41,068 nt of DNA from Candidatus Scalindua sp. (GTDB lineage: Bacteria; Planctomycetota; Brocadiia; Brocadiales; Scalinduaceae): contig JABHIW010000086.1 of NCBI GenBank assembly GCA_018670825.1, forward strand, positions 1-41,068, given 5' to 3'. The translations under genes and the position numbers were made by a program. How positions within the stretch are numbered: the stretch's first letter is position 1; each line of letters starts with the position of its first letter. Below are positions 1 to 40,944 of the stretch, in pieces. The notes below the pieces were generated by a model. That model saw only the letters and a list, made by a program, of their open reading frames with translations, was not told where the DNA came from and searched no databases.

Positions 1-119
1 ATTGACCCTGTGTCAGTAGGTCTCCAATCTGTCTCCCCAGCATAAGTTGCCTTACTTACACAGAAAAGTAATCCCACGACCATCAGCGATAAAGATGCAA
101 TCTTCAGTTTACTAAGCAT
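1..119 (-). CDS. N-terminus of a secreted protein (partial)
   Basis: This minus-strand reading frame starts with ATG at 119-117 and runs off the left edge of the window, so only 39 residues are visible. It opens with a typical Sec signal peptide: a lysine-containing n-region (MLSKLK), a hydrophobic core, and a likely cleavage site after ATYA. The mature protein would begin GETDWRPTDTGS. A strong ribosome binding site, AAAGGAG, lies seven bases before the ATG, which makes the start convincing. The gene is divergent from the sensor gene at 663, with 543 bases between them. Too little of the mature protein is visible to name a family; it is probably periplasmic or surface-exposed. Confidence 0.75.
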   Translation of the reverse strand, partial: MLSKLKIASLSLMVVGLLFCVSKATYAGETDWRPTDTGS

Positions 120-662: not shown

Positions 663-3600
663 ATGACAGAAAAGAAGAGTTTTTTTAAACAAAAAAGAGA
701 CTTTCTTAAGAATTATGAACCTTTTTCCTTATTGTCAAACAATCTTTTAAAGAAGATTGTATCTAAGCTTCAAGTCCAATATTATGGGGTTGGTCAGACT
801 ATATGCGAAAGAGGACAGAAGGGAAATTGTCTGTTTATCATTCATTCCGGCTCCGTAGTAGAAACGTTAGTTGATAGCAGCGGTGAAGAGATTGCCGTGG
901 CAATGCTCAGTGAAGGGGATTGCTTTGGCGCTATTTCTCTCCTTACCGATGAACCATATCTTGCAACCAAAAAGGCAAAGGAAGATGTTGAACTCTTTGT
1001 AATTTACAATGATGATATCCAGGAACTGATCCAAAAAAATCCTGTTTTGAGTGTATATTTGACGAGAGTTGTTTCAATGAGAATAAAAGCCTTCTTTGAT
1101 TTTTTTAAAAAGGAAAAAATCAAGATAGTTGAAGTAATTGAAGATAAGTTTGAAAAAGAGAGGAAATTAGACGTAATAAATAGAGTAACCAAGCTTTTCC
1201 ACTCATCGGAAGACATTAATAAAACACTCTTGTCAGTCGTTAAGGTCGTTAACAAGGAAATGAAAGCGGATGCGTGTTCTATCTACCTAGTTGACCGGGT
1301 TACCCATGATCTGGTGTTGGAAGCAGCAGTTGGTTTTGATGATAAAGCAATGAAAAATGTAAGAATGCGATTAGATGAAGGTGAAGGGGTTACCGGGTGG
1401 GTAGTTAAGAATGGCGGACCGGTTGCTCTTGAAAATGCCCACACAGACCCGAGAGTGAAGTTTATAACGGAAATCCATGAAGAACGTTTATCCTCACTCT
1501 TGTCTTTACCATTAGGTGAAAAGAATGATGTTATCGGCGCAATTAACATTCAAACTGTTGATGAGAGAAAGTACACATATGACGATATCAGAGGATTGAC
1601 GATTATGGCAAATCACATTGCCCTTGCGATTTCCCATGCACGTCTTAAAAGAAGGATACAGATTGCAGAGGGAATAAGTGGCAGGCAAGTTCCGGATAAG
1701 CCGGGTTTTGTAGGTAAAGGTAAATATATTGACAAAATAAATGCTTTCGTTGAGTCCATGGCGTCAGTCAATGAACCGGTATTGATAGGCGGTGAAGATG
1801 GGACCGGAAAAGTGCCTATGTCAAAGATCATACACTACAAGAGCAAACGTCATAAAGGCCCTTTTGTAGAGTTTGATTGTAGAGACATTGACAGTGAATC
1901 ATGGGGTGAAGAGCTTTTTGGATATGAAAAAACTCCTTACGTAATAAACAGTGATGACTCAACAGGGAAAGATTTACAGGACAATTTATCTCCACAAAAA
2001 GGTATTGAAACAGAGGATATAGCAACACGTCTGGGATTTATAGAGCTGGCTGATTCGGGAATGATTTTTTTGAATCATGTTGATAAGTTGAATCAAGCAA
2101 ACCAAATCAAATTACTGAACTACCTACAGGAAAGAAAATTTAATCGTGTCAATGGGAATGACACCATCTTTTCGAATGCACGAATTATTACATCTGTGTC
2201 TAAAGACATTGCTTCGTCTATAGAGGAAGGTAAATTTGATAAGAGTCTATATAAGATATTAAGCAAGAATCACTATCAATTAAAAGCTCTTAGAGATCAG
2301 AAACGCAGTATTCCAATGCTCACAAAAGACTTCCTTAAGAAGATCAGTCGTGAATTGCACAAAGATGTGAAAAATGTATCTGACAATGCGATGGGAAGGT
2401 TGATGAGTTATGATTGGCCGGGAAATGTTAAAGAGCTTGAGAATGTGCTGAGACGCGCAGTTATCCTGGCAAAGGGTGACGTAATTACGTCAGAACAAAT
2501 CTTTTTTGGCATACCAATGGGAGAAAAAAAATGGTCCTTTAATATTCTTTCATTTGATGCAGTTAAGAGTTTTTTAAAGAGTAAGTTTTACCCATCTGGT
2601 CTTCAGGTTTTAGGTTCACTATTTCTTGTAATTACACTTCTAATGCTATTCACGGGACATAAAGAGGGGCAATTAAATTTTATAAATATATTATTCTGGT
2701 CGGCAGGCATATTTGGTATGTACTTAATAACTTTTGTTTCCGGAAGATTTTTATGTGGAATATGTCCTTTTGCTGCGGCTGGAGATCTGGTGAAACGATT
2801 TAAAAATTTTAATCTGCAAATACCAAAGGTACTGGTTTTACACGGAAAGTATATTACCATTGGACTAATAATATTAGTCTTCTGGTTTGAAGGCGTCACA
2901 TCAATTCCACACTCTTCGACATTAACGGCATACTTGATTATATTTATTCTTTCGGGAGCCGTTATTTCAGGCTTTATCTTCGAAAGAAGAGTATGGTGTA
3001 GATATGTTTGTCCATTGGGCGGTTTGTTTGGTGTTTATTCACTTGTATCAATAACTTCTTTGAAAGCAAACAGAAGTGTATGTCTTAATCAATGCGAAAC
3101 TCACGATTGTTATCTGGGAACACAATTAACAGAAGGTTGTCCAATGTATTTACATCCATATGGGTTGGAAAATGGTAGAGATTGTGTTTTATGTATGAAT
3201 TGTTATAAGAATTGCAGTCACAGTTCTATAGAGGTCAATCTTCATGTGCCGGGAAGTGACATAGGTAACATGTCCAGCAGATCATTGCCTGAGTCGTTAC
3301 TATGCTTATCACTATTGGGTATACTATTAGTAGAGTATGGGAGTCTCCTCAGCATAGATTCTCAGTGGTTTCAATCTTTATACCGCCTTATTGGAATCAA
3401 TCAAACCATACTTTACACCGTAATATTCATCTCTGTATCTTTTCTCCCATCTGGTTCTATCGTTATCCTTGATTATGTATGCAATAGATTTTCGTTTGAC
3501 AATGTGAAAACAAGAATTACTGACTTCGGATATGCCGCTATTCCGCTTGCGCTTATGGGACATCTTGCTTTTTATTGGAACAAACTTAAAGCAGATTTCT

Positions 3601-3845
3601 GGACGTTGATGGAGATAACAGGTCTTTATCAATCGGTAAGAGTTGAAAATGAAGTTTTGCTTGCCAACAAAATAGGGGATATGTCAGCAATTGAACTACT
3701 GTTTATACTCGCGGGGGTACTGGGAAGTGTTTACATTTTTTATCTTATATCAAAAAAGAGGAGAGATGTCTTAACAAAATCGACAATTGCCTGTTATTTT
3801 TCTGTTTTTGCTGCCTTTGCATTTGCATTCATATGCATATTGTAG
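663..3845 (+). CDS. Membrane sensor: cNMP-binding-like, GAF, degenerate sigma-54 AAA+, NapH/NosR-like Fe-S domain
   Basis: This 1060-residue protein has four parts. Residues 20-135 resemble a Crp-type cyclic-nucleotide-binding fold, and 170-330 a GAF domain. Residues 347-615 resemble the sigma-54 activator AAA+ domain, ending in WPGNVKELENVLRRAV (585-600). From 640 on come several membrane segments with NapH/NosR/CcoG-type cysteine motifs: CGICP (698-702), CRYVCP (779-784), a first cluster C807/C811/C816/C826 and a second C841/C844/C847/C851. The AAA+ part is degenerate. Walker A is retained as GGEDGTGK (376-383), but the Walker B acidic pair is replaced by NH (FLNHVDK, 469-475). The GAFTGA loop is absent after FGYEK (419-423), and there is no C-terminal DNA-binding helix-turn-helix. 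I infer a redox- or ligand-responsive membrane protein that does not activate sigma-54 polymerase. No Shine-Dalgarno is visible before ATG 663. The combination is unusual; the individual domain calls are fairly secure. Confidence 0.85.
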   Translation: MTEKKSFFKQKRDFLKNYEPFSLLSNNLLKKIVSKLQVQYYGVGQTICERGQKGNCLFIIHSGSVVETLVDSSGEEIAVAMLSEGDCFGAISLLTDEPYLATKKAKEDVELFVIYNDDIQELIQKNPVLSVYLTRVVSMRIKAFFDFFKKEKIKIVEVIEDKFEKERKLDVINRVTKLFHSSEDINKTLLSVVKVVNKEMKADACSIYLVDRVTHDLVLEAAVGFDDKAMKNVRMRLDEGEGVTGWVVKNGGPVALENAHTDPRVKFITEIHEERLSSLLSLPLGEKNDVIGAINIQTVDERKYTYDDIRGLTIMANHIALAISHARLKRRIQIAEGISGRQVPDKPGFVGKGKYIDKINAFVESMASVNEPVLIGGEDGTGKVPMSKIIHYKSKRHKGPFVEFDCRDIDSESWGEELFGYEKTPYVINSDDSTGKDLQDNLSPQKGIETEDIATRLGFIELADSGMIFLNHVDKLNQANQIKLLNYLQERKFNRVNGNDTIFSNARIITSVSKDIASSIEEGKFDKSLYKILSKNHYQLKALRDQKRSIPMLTKDFLKKISRELHKDVKNVSDNAMGRLMSYDWPGNVKELENVLRRAVILAKGDVITSEQIFFGIPMGEKKWSFNILSFDAVKSFLKSKFYPSGLQVLGSLFLVITLLMLFTGHKEGQLNFINILFWSAGIFGMYLITFVSGRFLCGICPFAAAGDLVKRFKNFNLQIPKVLVLHGKYITIGLIILVFWFEGVTSIPHSSTLTAYLIIFILSGAVISGFIFERRVWCRYVCPLGGLFGVYSLVSITSLKANRSVCLNQCETHDCYLGTQLTEGCPMYLHPYGLENGRDCVLCMNCYKNCSHSSIEVNLHVPGSDIGNMSSRSLPESLLCLSLLGILLVEYGSLLSIDSQWFQSLYRLIGINQTILYTVIFISVSFLPSGSIVILDYVCNRFSFDNVKTRITDFGYAAIPLALMGHLAFYWNKLKADFWTLMEITGLYQSVRVENEVLLANKIGDMSAIELLFILAGVLGSVYIFYLISKKRRDVLTKSTIACYFSVFAAFAFAFICIL

Positions 3846-4094: not shown

Positions 4095-5105
4095 TTATTT
4101 AGCTACAGACGTTGTAGTTGATAATATATCATCAATTCTACATTTGTTGCGTTGATCCTTAGGCCCAAGAAAGCAGATAAATTCTCTTAACAATTCCTCA
4201 TTAAAATAAAGCGGATTCTCTTTTTTTAATATTGACAGTGTAGCAAAAGGCTTCATTGCGGCCGCAAATGGTCTGTCGGAAGTCATTGCATCATATGCAT
4301 CAACTATCCGAGAAATATGTCCAAATAAATGGATGTCGCTACCTCCGATTCCATAAGGATATCCTGTACCATCATTGTTTTCGTGGTGTTGAATAACTAC
4401 TTTCAAAGAGAGTCCATCAATGTCACCCATGAGTTCTAATAGATCCAGTCCTGCTTTAGGGTGTTTTTTGATTATATTAAACTCTTTACTCGTGAGGTTA
4501 TTGTCTTTGTTTAGGATATCTTGAGGGAGTATTGACTTACCGATATCATGCAACAGCAGACCTGTACCCAGACATTCCAATTCATTTGGTGTTAAGGAAA
4601 GATATTTGCCAAAAAGCAATCCGATTACTGATACGTTAATAGAATGCGTATACGTTTGATAATCTTTGGAAGTAACTTCAAATAAACTGGAGAATGTGTT
4701 TTCATTTTGCATAATATGGGTAATCGTATTACCTACCCATGTAGAAGCTCGTCCGATATTCTGACCGGACTTTGGGTCATCCAAAACGTCCTGTGTTAAA
4801 TTTTTTGCAACCTGATAAAGCACTCCTGATTTTTGCAAAGAACTTTTACTACTATCTTCAACAATGCACTTAAGATTTTTTTCCTGATACCTTAGATATT
4901 TATCAATATCTTTTGTAGAAATATAAAGCCTTTCTGCATTCCTGTTTAACAATTCCTCGTTTCTTTCAGGGCTGAATTGTTGATTCCCACGGCAGAACAA
5001 GATATAGTTGGAGCGTCCATTAACGTCGCTTTTCAAAAATACATCAAACTCTATCTTTGCGTTTTCAACTAAAGCATTTATTGATATGGCAATATATTCG
5101 TCCAT
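4095..5105 (-). CDS. HD-GYP domain c-di-GMP phosphodiesterase
   Basis: The 336-residue cytoplasmic protein has an N-terminal region of about 95 residues with no firm assignment, resembling the adaptor domains that often precede HD-GYP. The HD-GYP domain covers about 145-320. Visible metal and substrate residues are H154, the HD pair H186/D187 in LLHDIGK, H215, HHENNDGTGYP (240-250) with the GYP signature, and D269 in RIVDAYDAMTSDRP. All of these are expected in enzymes that hydrolyse c-di-GMP through pGpG to GMP. The gene converges on the sensor gene at 663-3845 with about 250 bases between them. It probably opposes the GGDEF protein at 36565. There is no receiver domain, so the input signal is unknown. 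Confidence 0.93.
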   Translation of the reverse strand: MDEYIAISINALVENAKIEFDVFLKSDVNGRSNYILFCRGNQQFSPERNEELLNRNAERLYISTKDIDKYLRYQEKNLKCIVEDSSKSSLQKSGVLYQVAKNLTQDVLDDPKSGQNIGRASTWVGNTITHIMQNENTFSSLFEVTSKDYQTYTHSINVSVIGLLFGKYLSLTPNELECLGTGLLLHDIGKSILPQDILNKDNNLTSKEFNIIKKHPKAGLDLLELMGDIDGLSLKVVIQHHENNDGTGYPYGIGGSDIHLFGHISRIVDAYDAMTSDRPFAAAMKPFATLSILKKENPLYFNEELLREFICFLGPKDQRNKCRIDDILSTTTSVAK

Positions 5106-5516: not shown

Positions 5517-5777
5517 TCATACTTTTAGTAGGGTTATCTGATTTTCCCCCAAATAATGGAAACTTCTCAGACCATAACCTTTAATAGTTTTCATATTCGG
5601 TTCTATATCAATTCCATTGATTCTCACTGTGGGAGAACCAGTAAAATGCAATCGCTTCGCATCTTCCGATGTCTCAATTAAAAGTAAGCTAATGTCTGTG
5701 TCAATAGCCTCCTCAGCAATAATCTCTTTAATATAGTCTCTTATAGACGATAAGCCGGGACTGTTATCAATAAACAT
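5517..5777 (-). CDS. Thioredoxin/glutaredoxin-like small protein without the usual cysteines
   Basis: The 86-residue protein matches, by pattern, the small thioredoxin-fold proteins with the signature F-x-GSPT-(V/I)-R-(V/I)-x-G-x-(D/E)-IEP; here FTGSPTVRINGIDIEP lies at 45-60. In that family the first strand normally ends in a cysteine motif like (E/D)xCP. Here the same position reads IDNSPGL (3-9), with serine in place of cysteine, and the protein contains no cysteine at all. A thiol redox role is therefore unlikely. Its ATG overlaps the stop of the upstream gene by one base (TAATG), which indicates translational coupling with the secreted protein at 5777-6268. The upstream in-frame sequence has no alternative ATG. 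Confidence 0.6.
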   Translation of the reverse strand: MFIDNSPGLSSIRDYIKEIIAEEAIDTDISLLLIETSEDAKRLHFTGSPTVRINGIDIEPNMKTIKGYGLRSFHYLGENQITLLKV

Positions 5778-12399: not shown

Positions 12400-12980
12400 T
12401 CCGCCTCTGTATTTTTTATCGGTACTCTAATCCTTTTAAAATCTTTACTTGAATTTCTCCATTAACACCAAAATGACAGATTACCAAATTCCATATAAAG
12501 ACCTGTTTTTAAGTTCATGCTATCTAAATGCCGGTTTCCATTTTGACAGTAATTAGGTCTCTTCCATACTTGTCCTGAATTTCCAGTTAAATTTCAGTTT
12601 TGACAACGTCTATGGGTCTTTCGACACTTCACCAATAGTTCACTTTTGTTAATCTCCTTAAAACACACTTGACATATCTTCTATGCCTTTTTCCCTGGAC
12701 GTTTACTACCATGACTCTTTATCACAGTAGTTCAGAGCGGCTTGAGACCTGCTCTTAAAATCGATATCGAAGGACCTTCTCTCATCTCTTGTATCGCATC
12801 AAACAACTTTCGTGCTTCTCACTCAATTGATTGTTCTTGGCACAAAATGTGGAGCCCATATTTATCAATTTGGGAAAATGTAATTCACAATTACTTTGAC
12901 ACCATCCACTTGCAGATTCACCCGACAATTCAATCTTTACAAATTTCATTCTTGAACGAATTAATTTTAGCATGGCAAAA
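12400..12980 (-). pseudogene. Possible decayed gene, family unknown
   Basis: On the minus strand, consecutive pieces read like protein but change frame and contain stops. At about 12973-12782 there is a 63-codon piece with KFVKIELSGESASGW. In a second frame around 12820-12740 comes EARKLFDAIQEMREG. Around 12720-12600 follow KSHGSKRPGKKA and then CQVCFKEI with VKCRKTHRRC, a zinc-ribbon-like cysteine spacing. The density of charged and patterned residues suggests an inactivated gene, perhaps a transposase or other mobile-element protein. I cannot name the family, and chance similarity is possible. Confidence 0.3.
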
Positions 12981-36564: not shown

Positions 36565-38202
36565 TTAATTATCCTGCGCTTCTTTGACTTTAAAAATCAC
36601 TACCCTGTTTCTACCCGATTCTTTAGCCTGGTAAAGAGCCTGATCAGCGTGTGCCAATAAATCATTTGCCGATTCTGCATCATTACTGAATGCAATACCA
36701 ACACTGACCGTTATGTGAAACAGTTTTGATTCAGATTTAAATGTCTGTTTTGATACCATCTCCCTAAACCTTTCGTAGGCAGAATAAATACTCTCCTTAC
36801 TCACATTCGGTAGAATTACGGCAAACTCTTCTCCACCATAACGACACGCAAGGTCACTCCTCCTAATATGTTTCTTGAGTATTCCTCCGACATCTGACAA
36901 CACCATATCTCCTGCGGGATGGCCGTATGTATCATTTACTTTTTTGAAGTAATCCAGATCCAACATGATAAGGGCCATATCCATCTCATAACGATTCGCT
37001 CTTTCAAACTCTCCATCCAATGCATCTATGAAATAGCGGCGATTATATAATTTTGTTAATTCGTCTACAGTAGACATTTCTGCCATTTTTGCGTGGGCCT
37101 TTTCTACATCTTTTCTGAGGCTAGCCCTTTCCAGTGTATTATTTAAAACTCTGAGTAGTGATTCTGAGTTTATTCTACTCCTCGGTAAATATTCATAGGC
37201 CCCCATCTGTATCACATGTGACGCAAGCATCTCATCGCCATGCTCTGTAACGACTATTACCGGAGTTCCTATATCTTCTTTGTCAATATCTCTAAGATAT
37301 TCAATACTTGTTCCTTCTGATAAAATATGGTTTAGGAAAACCATATCAAACGGTTCCTGTTTTAACATGGCAAATGAAGCTTTAAAATTTCCTGCCCATG
37401 ATAATTTGATAAGATCCTGGTCTGCGAAAAAAGCCTTAAGCACTTCAAGGACATCCTTTGTATCATCCACAACAAGTATATTTATTTCTCTATCCAAGCT
37501 ACTAGCGACAGCAGTGCTGTCCTTATTCGACTGTGTGGGTTTAGAATAATGTAAGGTATTAATATTTGTTATTATATCGGATAATTTTTGTCCGGATACT
37601 TTCATTCGATTTATACATTCAACCGTTTTCTTAGGATTTCCTTTAATTTCCCCCATCAACTCTATATCTTCCACAAGAAACGCCAATGGTTGATTCAGCT
37701 CATAAGCTTTTGCTCCGGCCATCTGAAGCAATACCTTGACACGCTCTTCTTCAATAAGTGTTTCCTGTTGTTCCAGGATTCTTTTGTTTGCCATCTTTAA
37801 CTTAGTATTTATTTTCTTGAGGGCCTCTTTCTGTCCGTGCAACTCAAGGAATACATTAACTTTACCCTGTAAAATATCAGGATCCAATGGTTTAAACAAA
37901 TAATCCACCGCACCTTTTTCATATCCTTCAAATATATATTTTTGTTCTTTGCTGATTGCGGTTACAAAAATAATAGGAATACTCTTTGTTTCCTCGTTTC
38001 CACGTATTATTTCTGCAGTCTCAAATCCATCCATATCCGGCATTTGAACATCAAGGAGAATAAGTGCAAAATCATACTTCAGGAGCAATGCCAGAGCGTC
38101 ATTACCACTTGTGGCCTCTATAATATCCAATCCTGGTTTTACCAGAATTTTTCGAAGCGCCAGAAGATTTGCCGGTTTGTCATCTACAATAAGAATGTTC
38201 AT
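36565..38202 (-). CDS. REC - pseudo-HisKA - pseudo-REC - GGDEF diguanylate cyclase
   Basis: The 545-residue cytoplasmic protein begins with a complete receiver domain (DD at 7-8, phosphoacceptor Asp51 in DVQMPDMDG, Thr81, Lys104). After a coiled coil, residues 155-220 resemble a HisKA dimerisation domain, but the HELNQPL motif reads YELNQPL: Tyr167 replaces the phosphorylated His. A second receiver (about 240-360) keeps DD at 246-247 but has Asn291 in place of the phosphoacceptor Asp. The C-terminal GGDEF domain (375-535) carries the active site GGEEF (456-460) and an I-site RRSD (447-450) five residues before it, so it should make c-di-GMP with product inhibition. It follows CheB by 86 bases and may take its signal from the CheR/CheB genes upstream. 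Confidence 0.93.
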   Translation of the reverse strand: MNILIVDDKPANLLALRKILVKPGLDIIEATSGNDALALLLKYDFALILLDVQMPDMDGFETAEIIRGNEETKSIPIIFVTAISKEQKYIFEGYEKGAVDYLFKPLDPDILQGKVNVFLELHGQKEALKKINTKLKMANKRILEQQETLIEEERVKVLLQMAGAKAYELNQPLAFLVEDIELMGEIKGNPKKTVECINRMKVSGQKLSDIITNINTLHYSKPTQSNKDSTAVASSLDREINILVVDDTKDVLEVLKAFFADQDLIKLSWAGNFKASFAMLKQEPFDMVFLNHILSEGTSIEYLRDIDKEDIGTPVIVVTEHGDEMLASHVIQMGAYEYLPRSRINSESLLRVLNNTLERASLRKDVEKAHAKMAEMSTVDELTKLYNRRYFIDALDGEFERANRYEMDMALIMLDLDYFKKVNDTYGHPAGDMVLSDVGGILKKHIRRSDLACRYGGEEFAVILPNVSKESIYSAYERFREMVSKQTFKSESKLFHITVSVGIAFSNDAESANDLLAHADQALYQAKESGRNRVVIFKVKEAQDN

Positions 38203-38288: not shown

Positions 38289-38915
38289 TTATCCATTGCT
38301 TTCAAGCTTTCTCAGTAAAGGTCCTATCTTTTCGAGAGGCAACACGTAATCAGGTTTAACAGCTGCGATAGCCGCTCTAGGCATATCAGAAACTTCAGAT
38401 GTTTCTGGTTTCTGGACAATAGCAAGACCACCTGCTTCCTTTATTATTTTTAACCCCTGGCTACCATCTTTATTTGCGCCAGTCAAAACAACTCCGATAA
38501 GCCCTTTTCCATAAACTTCTGCAGCTGACTCAAAAACCACATCAACGGATGGGCGTGCGTAATTAACAGCCCCCTCTACTGACATAGAAAATACGCCATC
38601 ATCTTCTATTAATAAATGGTAATTTGGTGGAGCCACGTAGACCACTCCTGCCGTAATCTCTTCTTTTTCATCAGCCTGCTTTACACGCATTTTACACTCA
38701 TTATCCAGTAACTGTTCTAAATAACCATCTGCATCTTTGTGTCTGTGCATAACGATAATAACAGAGAGCTCAAATTTTGACGGTAAAACTGAAAGAATTG
38801 TTTTGAGGGCCTTTATGCCTCCGGTAGAAACACCGATAACAATTACCTTATATTTGTGATTATTTGTTATGTAATCATTATTTGACTTTTGCGTCATTTC
38901 AGTATTATTCATCAC
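38289..38915 (-). CDS. CheB-type methylesterase without a receiver domain
   Basis: The 208-residue protein is the CheB methylesterase domain alone. The catalytic residues are visible: Ser30 in GVSTGG, His57 in MHRH, and Asp150 in TGANKDGSQG. It hydrolyses glutamyl methyl esters on chemoreceptors. The usual N-terminal receiver domain is missing, so phosphorylation would have to come through a partner. The frame begins GTG-ATG, and the true start may be either or the ATG at codon 7. It is 29 bases downstream of CheR in the same direction. Confidence 0.93.
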   Translation of the reverse strand: MMNNTEMTQKSNNDYITNNHKYKVIVIGVSTGGIKALKTILSVLPSKFELSVIIVMHRHKDADGYLEQLLDNECKMRVKQADEKEEITAGVVYVAPPNYHLLIEDDGVFSMSVEGAVNYARPSVDVVFESAAEVYGKGLIGVVLTGANKDGSQGLKIIKEAGGLAIVQKPETSEVSDMPRAAIAAVKPDYVLPLEKIGPLLRKLESNG

Positions 38916-38944
38916 CTTGTAACCGGGTTAATATTCAAAAGTTT

Positions 38945-39781
38945 TCATAAACACTCCCCGTTTTTTCTGTATATTTTTTCATTCTCAGCAACATTTTCAA
39001 AATTATCCGAATAAGATGAAAATCTTACGGTTTCTTTAGAACCCAGGCAAAGGAATGCTCCCAGGCGCAGACTGTCCCTGAAAAGTTTGAACACACGGTC
39101 TTGTAACTCTCTGTTAAAATAAATGAGCACATTCCTGCACATTACTATATCCATCTCCCCGAAAACGCTATCTGTTACCAGATTATGATTGGAAAAGACA
39201 ATATTTTTTTTTAAGGAATTATCCATGATTGCATGATCATATCTGGCAGTATAATAATCAGAAAAAGATGCAAGTCCACCGGCCTTCCTGTAATTTATAG
39301 TATAATCTTTCATTTTATCAATGGAGAAAATCCCCGATTTTGCTTTATCGAGAACAACATCGTTAGCATCTGTAGCATAAATCAGGGACGATTCGTACAG
39401 TCCCTCCTCTTTCAGTAAAATAGCAGTAGAGTAAACTTCCTCACCGCTGGCACATCCGGCATGCCAAACCTTTATGAATGGCTGTTTTTTCAGTTCAGGT
39501 ATTACCGCTTTCCTGAGTGTCTTAAAAAAAGAAGGGTCCCGGAACATCTCGGTAACATTGATAGTAAGGTCTAAGAGTAGCGATCCAAAAAATTGCCTAT
39601 CGTAAAGCAGCTTGTGCTGCATCTCGGAAATTGTTTTGAGATTGGACTGATTCAGACGGTAACGTATGCGGCGCCTTATAGATGCTTTAGAATAATTCCT
39701 GAAATCAAAACCATACTTCTGGTAGATTGCCTGCAAGATCAGGTCGAATTCAATTTTTTCATTTTCGTTTGTTTTATCCAT
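38945..39781 (-). CDS. CheR-type glutamate methyltransferase
   Basis: The frame can be extended to a TTG at 39814, but ATG at 39781 gives a normal 278-residue CheR. An N-terminal helical domain (about 10-65) is followed by the SAM-dependent methyltransferase domain. Family marks are NVTEMFRDP (about 75-83), the SAM-binding HAGCASGEE (107-115), and MDIVMCRNVLIYF near the active site. It methylates receptor glutamates. It is followed by CheB and then the GGDEF protein. No chemoreceptor or CheA lies in the window. Confidence 0.93.
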   Translation of the reverse strand: MDKTNENEKIEFDLILQAIYQKYGFDFRNYSKASIRRRIRYRLNQSNLKTISEMQHKLLYDRQFFGSLLLDLTINVTEMFRDPSFFKTLRKAVIPELKKQPFIKVWHAGCASGEEVYSTAILLKEEGLYESSLIYATDANDVVLDKAKSGIFSIDKMKDYTINYRKAGGLASFSDYYTARYDHAIMDNSLKKNIVFSNHNLVTDSVFGEMDIVMCRNVLIYFNRELQDRVFKLFRDSLRLGAFLCLGSKETVRFSSYSDNFENVAENEKIYRKNGECL

Positions 39782-40467
39782 AACAATTTGAAAACCGGTA
39801 AACCGTTTTCTCAAATTTACATAAGCGTCATGAAATTATACACCTGACGATAACCATGTCAATATTAAGATGTCTTTAAACCCTTATCACTTACCTGCCT
39901 CACCGCCCACACATACCAACAAGCGAGATACTCTCATTCTAAAACTATATTCGCAGAACTTATTCCCGGTAACGAAGCAAACATTAAGAAAAACCCGGTG
40001 GTCTACGAACATGTTAACACCTTAAGGTGGGAAATAGCCGGACCAACCCACTCCAAGACCTTCGGGTTTACACCCGTCAAAAAGAATTGGAATTGATTCC
40101 CATGAGAGGTTGAGATTCTCAAAAGCTCGCTGCCGTTTAAATAAAAGTATCCACATCCAGAAAAACCTTTTGACAGATATACGAGAATGCCTCCTCACTC
40201 ATTTCACATAAAGGAAATACGTAGCAGTGAAAATACATTACGAATTTAACCAACCGGTGTCCACGCTATAAGAACTAATATGAAAAAGACTTAAGGTTCA
40301 TATTTTTATTGACAACCTTGTACTACTGTATTAGATTAACTGTGAAGGCAGAAAATGGTAAGGTAAACAATTACAGGCTTCCTGAGTTAAGAAATGTTCA
40401 AGGCTGTAATTAGATTTCTCATCGCCGTCAGGATTAAGACGGACAAGCAAAGTGTAGGTAAAGAATA
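39782..40467. other. Intergenic region of mixed composition
   Basis: Nearly 690 bases between the CheR start and the truncated sigma-54 activator; both promoters must lie here. I see no convincing gene. Around 39990-40130 the DNA is richer in G and C than the flanks and includes the self-complementary CACCTTAAGGTG at 40018-40029. This may be a remnant of another element. A possible promoter for the downstream gene is listed separately. Confidence 0.5.
40309..40336 (+). promoter_or_regulatory. Candidate sigma-70-type promoter
   Basis: TTGACA at 40309-40314 is followed after 16 bases by TTAGAT at 40331-40336, a perfect -35 and a poor -10. It lies about 130 bases before ATG 40468. The long leader and weak -10 keep the confidence low. 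Confidence 0.3.
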
Positions 40468-40944
40468 ATGGAACAACAGGATATAAGAAATTATGGACTC
40501 AGAGAGGAGCCTGAGCTATGGAAAATTATTGGCAGTAGTAAAGAAATCAAGAAAGTCCTTGAAAGCATACAGACTGTTCTGGAGAGCGATGTACCGGTAG
40601 TTATTAATGGAGAAACCGGTACAGGAAAAGAGCTTGTAGCAAAAGCTATCCATTACAAGGGTCCAAGACGCAAACAAACCTTTTGTACCATTAACTGTGC
40701 AGCAATTCCTGATAATTTGCTGGAGAGTGAATTGATGGGACATGAAAAAGGCGCATTTACTGGAGCGGTTCAGCAAAAGCTAGGAAAACTTGAACATGCA
40801 AGTAGGGGTACACTGTTTTTGGATGAAATAACAGAGATGCCTCTTGCCATGCAAGCAAAAATCCTGCGCGTAATCGAAGAACAGGTATTCGAAAGAGTGG
40901 GTGGCAACAAACCGATTAAAACAGATGGTATCTACTCACAGTAA
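40468..40944 (+). pseudogene. Truncated sigma-54-dependent activator AAA+ domain
   Basis: The first 153 residues are a well-preserved NtrC-family central domain: Walker A GETGTGKE (48-55), the sigma-54 contact loop GAFTGA (95-100) and Walker B LFLDE (116-120). There is no receiver domain in front of it. The match ends at NKPIKTD, after which the family expects the sensor-1 region (VRIIAATN-like). Here it reads GIYSQ and stops. The C-terminal half and the helix-turn-helix are missing. The stop codon falls inside a GTAAGC sequence that looks like the terminus of an IS66-type element, so insertion is the likely cause. As a fragment it should be inactive. Confidence 0.8.

Follow-up and report, generated by a model that had tools for sequence, protein, structure and literature searches.

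The contig JABHIW010000086.1 of Candidatus Scalindua sp. (assembly GCA_018670825.1) was analysed over its full 41,068 nucleotides, referred to here as the window; it is one of the 178 contigs (G000:C117) of a 4.45-Mb genome. We found that one gene of this window, at positions 663 to 3,845 of the forward strand, encodes a 1060-residue protein in which a cyclic-nucleotide-binding (CNB) domain, a GAF domain, a catalytically degenerate AAA+ domain of the sigma-54 activator type and a NapH-like membrane iron-sulfur (Fe-S) module are joined in a single chain. Because the activator engine appears to be broken and the same combination recurs in very different bacteria, the protein itself probably does not activate genes but regulates or monitors the flow of electrons. 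At a probability of roughly 40%, we read it as a membrane redox protein in which ligands on the cytoplasmic side would gate the Fe-S module by way of a pseudo-ATPase.

The open reading frame starts with ATG and runs without an internal stop, and its parts were assigned by Pfam. The CNB domain (residues 39-126, positions 777..1040; all features of the gene are on the plus strand) matched cNMP_binding at 6.6e-20, reaching 71.3 bits against a cut-off of 27.5 for PF00027. The GAF domain (residues 183-323, 1209..1631) was recognised by PF13185/PF01590, with GAF_2 at 3.4e-15, and is like the GAF domains of NifA and PtsP. The AAA+ alpha/beta domain (residues 350-541, 1710..2285) matched Sigma54_activat at 9.9e-32 and, over the same residues, Sigma54_activ_2 at 1.1e-17, and is followed by an AAA+ lid (residues 544-614, 2292..2504; AAA_lid_14, 2.1e-21). 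The membrane Fe-S module occupies residues 622-1060 (2526..3842) and was matched by Fer4_5 in two stretches at 1.5e-06. The single-chain order of domains claimed by the original prediction, which had been made from the DNA letters alone, was thereby borne out.

Motif comparisons indicate that the AAA+ part has lost features required for sigma-54 activation and that these losses recur throughout the family. Residues were compared in an alignment of 36 members from at least seven phyla, comprising 10 of 21 near and 26 of 32 far relatives; a near-duplicate (L034) and five sequences shorter than 650 residues (L035, L039, L063, L064 and L065) were dropped, and L050 and L053-L055 were left out because their contigs are the same as those of near relatives. 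Walker A is retained in the window protein (GEDGTGKV, residues 377-384, 1791..1814; G377-E-D-G-T-G-K383-V), with the acidic residue after the lysine missing; among the aligned members, G380 is kept in 36/36 and G382 in 30/36, and the lysine position holds Lys in 24 and Arg in 10. The Walker B position (GMIFLNH, residues 466-472, 2058..2078) ends in F-L-N471-H472, so that the acidic pair is gone, as the original prediction had noticed. The glutamate position is Asn in 21 of the 36 members, His in 11, Glu in one (L057) and another residue in three; the N-H pair is the version of the window copy, and relatives have D-H, D-N, K-N, E-N, Y-N and others. Where the GAFTGA loop would be, the window protein has an insert with low model confidence (residues 424-454, 1932..2024). 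A motif scan of 55 sequences (21 near, 32 far, including two stand-alone modules and partial copies, and two cyanobacterial) found no GAFTGA-like motif, no Walker B D-E motif and no R-finger motif R-x-D-L-Y-x-R in any of them. As a control, the P-loop, GAFTGA, D-E and PGN-x-x-EL were found in six of the seven AAA+ loci of the same genome (the seventh, L008, was missed by the scan), and the R-finger motif in five of the six detected. No helix-turn-helix (HTH) family was listed among the 11 Pfam families at E<=1 for the window protein, nor for any of 27 members scanned singly, in agreement with the absence first reported.

The AAA+ fold itself, with its lid, is that of the bacterial enhancer-binding proteins (bEBPs), as judged by Pfam, AlphaFold2 (AF2) and Foldseek. 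Foldseek matched the AAA+ part to NtrC1 (1ny6) with a TM-score of 0.90 by target length, with VpsR and FleQ also listed, and the AF2 model has a pLDDT of mostly 77-91 in this part, below 40 in the GAF domain and below 50 in the insert, within a whole-chain mean of 69 (pTM 0.48). The family thus shares the AAA+ fold, lid and P-loop with NtrC1, NifA, NtrX and FleQ, and its GAF-AAA+ core is nearest NifA by sequence and NtrC1 by fold; it differs from them in lacking GAFTGA, the Walker B D-E pair, the R-finger motif and an HTH, and in carrying a membrane Fe-S module. VpsR, TyrR, DhaR, HupR and YplP are known regulators that bind DNA. In the excerpts of PMC3162934, these five likewise have a sigma-54-type AAA+ domain without a working GAFTGA; the window family instead lacks an HTH and has a Fe-S domain of nine transmembrane (TM) helices. 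GAFTGA was defined, and the roles of the bEBP motifs taken, from the excerpted text of PMC7175178, which also describes group 5 bEBPs without an HTH, so a missing HTH is not remarkable in itself. The window protein is nevertheless not a bEBP, because three defining features fail. A role as a sigma-54 activator was rejected on the missing motifs (0/55) and on the cyanobacterial members described below. Near the end of the contig, the window also holds a truncated AAA+ domain of an ordinary sigma-54 activator (40468-40944, plus strand), whose P-loop, GAFTGA and LDE are intact.

The membrane module is predicted to have nine TM helices with 12 cysteines on the inner side: a CxxC motif at the end of TM2 (C698, C701; 2754..2765), a CRYVC motif following TM4 (C779, C783; 2997..3011), and a ferredoxin-like stretch C807-x3-C811-x4-C816-x9-C826P ... 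C841-x2-C844-x2-C847-x3-C851 (3081..3215). The seven from C698 to C816 are Cys in all 36 aligned members and the remaining five in 35/35, one copy being cut, so all the cysteines expected of a polyferredoxin membrane domain are there and invariant. Under the nine-helix reading, the inner loops contain 22 Lys and Arg residues and the outer loops four; the AAA+ and Fe-S parts would therefore share one side of the membrane, which in anammox cells may be that of the anammoxosome. The likeness to NapH and NosR proposed for this module is real but weak by profile comparison: the NapH/MauN model (TIGR02163) gave 35.4 bits against a cut-off of 213.05, and the NosR model (NF046105) 17.1 bits against 1000. 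With NapH/MauN the module shares the CxxCP/CRxxCP membrane motifs and the inner-side 4Fe-4S cysteines, and to these the window protein adds a large soluble sensor part and five TM helices (TM5-TM9 in a C-terminal extension, residues 875-1059, 3285..3839, which is not in the 255-position NapH model). With NosR, which carries the name "transcriptional regulator" in NCBIfam, it shares a polyferredoxin-like C-terminal part; it differs in that its sensor part lies at the inner side and no FMN-binding domain (FMN_bind) appears in its Pfam list. Modelled alone, the module reached a pLDDT of 79.5 and a pTM of 0.83. Stand-alone nine-helix NapH-like relatives of the module were noticed in metagenome-assembled genome (MAG) records of Mesobacillus (L064) and Ktedonobacter (L065); they align with it over almost its full length at 27 and 25% identity and are without CNB, GAF or AAA+ domains, and L064 lacks the second CRxxCP form.

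The gene is genuine and maintained. A search of 59 genomes, its own included, gave a match at E<=1e-60 in 16; the window-type gene was full-length in 10 of the 59, truncated at a contig end in G006 and in pieces in G014. All 12 genomes with the window type fall among the 17 of the same family (G000-G016), and four genomes (G011, G012, G019 and G021) carry paralogues only. The nearest named records among the matches listed were Candidatus Scalindua MAGs at 72-89% identity, and a Nitrospinota member (L062) has the identical domain order, GAF included, at 36% identity over residues 13-1057. A frameshift or assembly error joining two genes, with orthologues occurring only as separate proteins, had been named as what would overturn the original prediction; in view of the full-length relatives in 10 genomes and the order in L062, we rejected such a chimera, which has next to no probability. 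The ratio of nonsynonymous to synonymous substitutions (dN/dS, Nei-Gojobori) among nine Scalindua orthologues was 0.109 for the CNB domain, 0.093 for GAF, 0.144 for AAA+, 0.088 for the lid, 0.140 for TM1-4 plus the Fe-S part and 0.186 for the C-terminal TM5-9; all domains are under purifying selection.

Members occur far beyond Scalindua. In a scan of named genomes, at least 34 loci of the best 80 of 500 confirmed stretches matched over the AAA+ half as well as the membrane half, and the both-half matches listed belonged to Scalindua, Anammoxibacter, Desulfobulbaceae, other Desulfobacterota, Nitrospinota, Nitrospirota, Tectomicrobia, Armatimonadota and Acidobacteriota. Three other Planctomycetota genomes, of 392 sampled from the phylum with its own order included, carry a member (L117-L119); by eye, L119 has a receiver-like N-terminus where the CNB domain would be. 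In the 27 members scanned singly, CNB, Sigma54_activat, the lid and Fer4_5 were found in 27/27 and GAF in 6/27. A tree, built without 13 fused members that a motif filter had removed, has too little depth to establish that the fusion happened only once: the label "fused" took two changes, long branches join one another, and the fused members enclose two stand-alone modules. As judged from profile matches, the parts are known and the combination is without a curated name. Among the NCBIfam families shown for the window protein none reached its cut-off, the best being NifA (234.7 against 528.85 bits), and no title describing the architecture was found; the suspicion that the class had not been described therefore held for the titles and abstract openings of the openly licensed literature, which mostly leaves out subscription journals, where an earlier description is possible.

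Two further members, of 897 and 904 residues, lie on plasmids of the cyanobacteria Pseudanabaena galeata and Aulosira laxa (L159, L160) and were the only matches at E<=1e-60 among 72,556 plasmid records. Both keep all 12 cysteines and lack GAFTGA, and Asn stands at or beside the Walker B glutamate site (N-N and E-N). On both plasmids a cysteine synthase gene follows 5-17 bp after the family gene, and petC and psbA lie within about 9 kb, the family gene being about 3-7 kb from petC; the Rieske domain of the Aulosira petC was confirmed. DsrE and rhodanese genes are close to one of the two members, and the region has the look of an island for redox or sulfur adaptation. The excerpts of papers on sulfide and cyanobacteria contain nothing on cyclic nucleotides, cysteine synthase, NtrX, "nitrogen assimilation" or "operon".

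Two paralogues have informative neighbours. Paralogue 3, of the order CNB-AAA+-membrane, is co-directional with a CHASE2-class III cyclase gene in six of six loci (5/5 and the copy in the same genome; L151-L155, L162), the two genes overlapping by about 34 bases at one extreme and lying about 100 bases apart at the other; the identity of the cyclase was checked by Pfam for two of the six. Since these loci are close relatives, they count as one conserved pair and not as six independent ones. A SLAC1-like channel gene was also seen near the pair in four of five loci. Paralogue 2 is divergent from an anammox-type Rieske/cytochrome b operon in three of five loci, with about 1.1 kb between them. 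The operon encodes a Rieske protein, an NAD(P)-type oxidoreductase, cytochrome b, a subunit-IV-like protein, and multihaem and HAO-like octahaem proteins; it is complete in G011 and G013, its first three genes are also in G003, and it is missing in G019 and G021. The excerpts of PMC12954380 describe a similar set of genes, Kuste4569-4574. Among far members, several Desulfobulbaceae copies come after a gene resembling phosphoribosyl pyrophosphate synthetase, and L052 adjoins a multihaem cytochrome.

The surroundings of the window-type gene are of another kind. Upstream, the start of a divergent gene for a small secreted protein, cut by the contig end, lies at 1..119 on the minus strand (its first 39 residues were matched to its cluster by eye). 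This gene is next to the orthologue in all eight loci with enough upstream sequence, and is followed by a 190-residue protein in 8/8 and an FHA-trypsin-like membrane protein in 7/8; other conserved divergent genes were named by eye as HAD-like and HolA-like. Downstream, a convergent gene with an HD domain (HD-GYP-like; 4095..5105, minus strand) adjoins in six of 10 window-type loci and may be unrelated. A role in c-di-GMP signalling through this neighbour is conceivable; the residues after Walker A, compared by eye with what we take to be those of FleQ, did not match. A conserved nitrogen-oxide partner was sought in 10 window-type loci and rejected, none being found; the conserved nitrogen-oxide or quinol enzyme for which the original prediction advised looking does not adjoin this type, and such partners stand only by the paralogues. 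In G013, alone among these loci, an octaheme-like gene is present at a distance of about 6 kb. Elsewhere in the window, an Rfam group-II-D1D4-2 intron match (12667-12783, minus strand; 64.1 bits, gathering threshold 36) had no large reverse-transcriptase reading frame noticed beside it, and an 86-residue protein (5517-5777, minus strand) scored 63.9 bits with a DF family (seleno)protein model, slightly below the cut-off of 70. CheB-like and CheR-like genes (38289-39814 and 36565-38202, both minus strand) adjoin a gene that combines two receiver-like parts with a GGDEF-like one, all recognised by eye.

In our preferred interpretation, the cytoplasmic CNB and GAF domains would read small molecules, and ligand binding there would alter the pseudo-AAA+ domain, perhaps ATP-bound and perhaps oligomeric. 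This domain, with its P-loop kept and ATP hydrolysis and sigma-54 contact presumably lost, would act as a scaffold or clamp that hands its state to the nine-helix module, and the module would shuttle electrons between the quinol pool of the membrane and [4Fe-4S] clusters on the inner side. The observations behind this interpretation are the architecture, the family-wide losses, the invariant cysteines, purifying selection, the predicted topology and the cyanobacterial occurrence; we infer cluster binding and quinol oxidation by the module, the quinol partner, nucleotide or ligand binding, the oligomer and the direction of control. In a more specific version, which we put forward only tentatively, the family, with at least eight phyla represented, would act as a second-messenger-gated electron valve: a cyclic nucleotide or a comparable ligand, recognised by CNB/GAF, would open or close quinol-to-Fe-S electron transfer via a non-hydrolysing AAA+ related to sigma-54 activators, and a dedicated CHASE2 cyclase would produce the signal for one Scalindua paralogue. 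Several observations weigh against the preferred interpretation. The canonical Glu and Arg of CNB domains, which we take to be the phosphate-binding residues, are kept in 29/36 and 13/36 aligned members; both are missing in the window cassette (FGAISLLTDEPYLAT; A90, no Arg) and in the other Scalindua copies of its type, and because of this loss the window CNB domain may be unable to bind cyclic nucleotides. In the paralogues linked to the cyclase, the Arg is replaced by Cys, and no cyclase was found beside far members in 28 far loci. As for the module, it had no fold relative in the PDB at E<=0.001, its profile matches are confined to the ferredoxin stretches, and no constant redox-enzyme neighbour accompanies the window-type gene in the 10 loci examined.

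A reversed flow of information, in which the Fe-S module would report whether the quinone pool is reduced or oxidised, with the pseudo-AAA+ signalling by protein contact, for example by joining and poisoning the rings of intact bEBPs or by binding another partner, is a doubtful reading in itself and yet nearly as likely as gating. It accords with the close resemblance of the fold to NtrC1, with the presence of intact bEBPs and sigma-54 (PF04552, 198.9 bits) in the same genome, and with the fact that, in the excerpts of PMC3162934, degenerate-GAFTGA proteins such as VpsR remain regulators. The same excerpts report a survey in which sigma-54 and its activators were absent from 29 cyanobacterial genomes; members in cyanobacteria therefore suggest that mixed rings are not the general role, and the lack of the R-finger motif (0/55) and of an HTH (none of 27) also argues against this output. 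By our analysis the family in general would not be a sigma-54 switch, the cyanobacterial point relying on the survey and not on these two genomes. The membrane redox sensor with a nucleotide-sensing AAA+ linker that the original prediction proposed stands as one of two live readings: ligands may gate electron transfer, or electron transfer may be what the protein senses.

The weak similarity to the NapH and NosR models, the paralogue beside the Rieske/cytochrome b operon and the proximity of plasmid members to petC would also suit a NosR/CcoG-like maintenance factor, delivering electrons to, or maturing, one membrane or periplasmic metalloenzyme, with the soluble part merely an anchor. This is unlikely: no enzyme is a constant neighbour family-wide, the Desulfobulbaceae neighbours are housekeeping genes, no FMN-binding domain is listed, and three or four conserved soluble domains exceed the needs of an anchor. 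Still less probable, and disfavoured, is the view that a transcription factor in decay has been joined to a membrane protein and that its soluble part retains little function. The loss of Walker B, GAFTGA and R-fingers and the broken G014 copy would fit decay; the dN/dS of the AAA+ domain and lid does not, nor does the non-random Walker B position, which is Asn or His in 32/36 members across phyla.

The family is named after its AAA+ part: one plasmid member is annotated as a "nitrogen assimilation regulatory protein", and members other than this one match NtrC/NifA models best. If ligand gating of the membrane module holds true, such labels would be wrong, and the family would show plainly how an activator ATPase can be put to new use as a pseudo-enzyme. 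It would also mean that bacteria have a recurrent way of coupling small-molecule signals to membrane electron transfer with no transcription step. The pairing with the cyclase and the occurrence in cyanobacteria offer ways of testing this interpretation.

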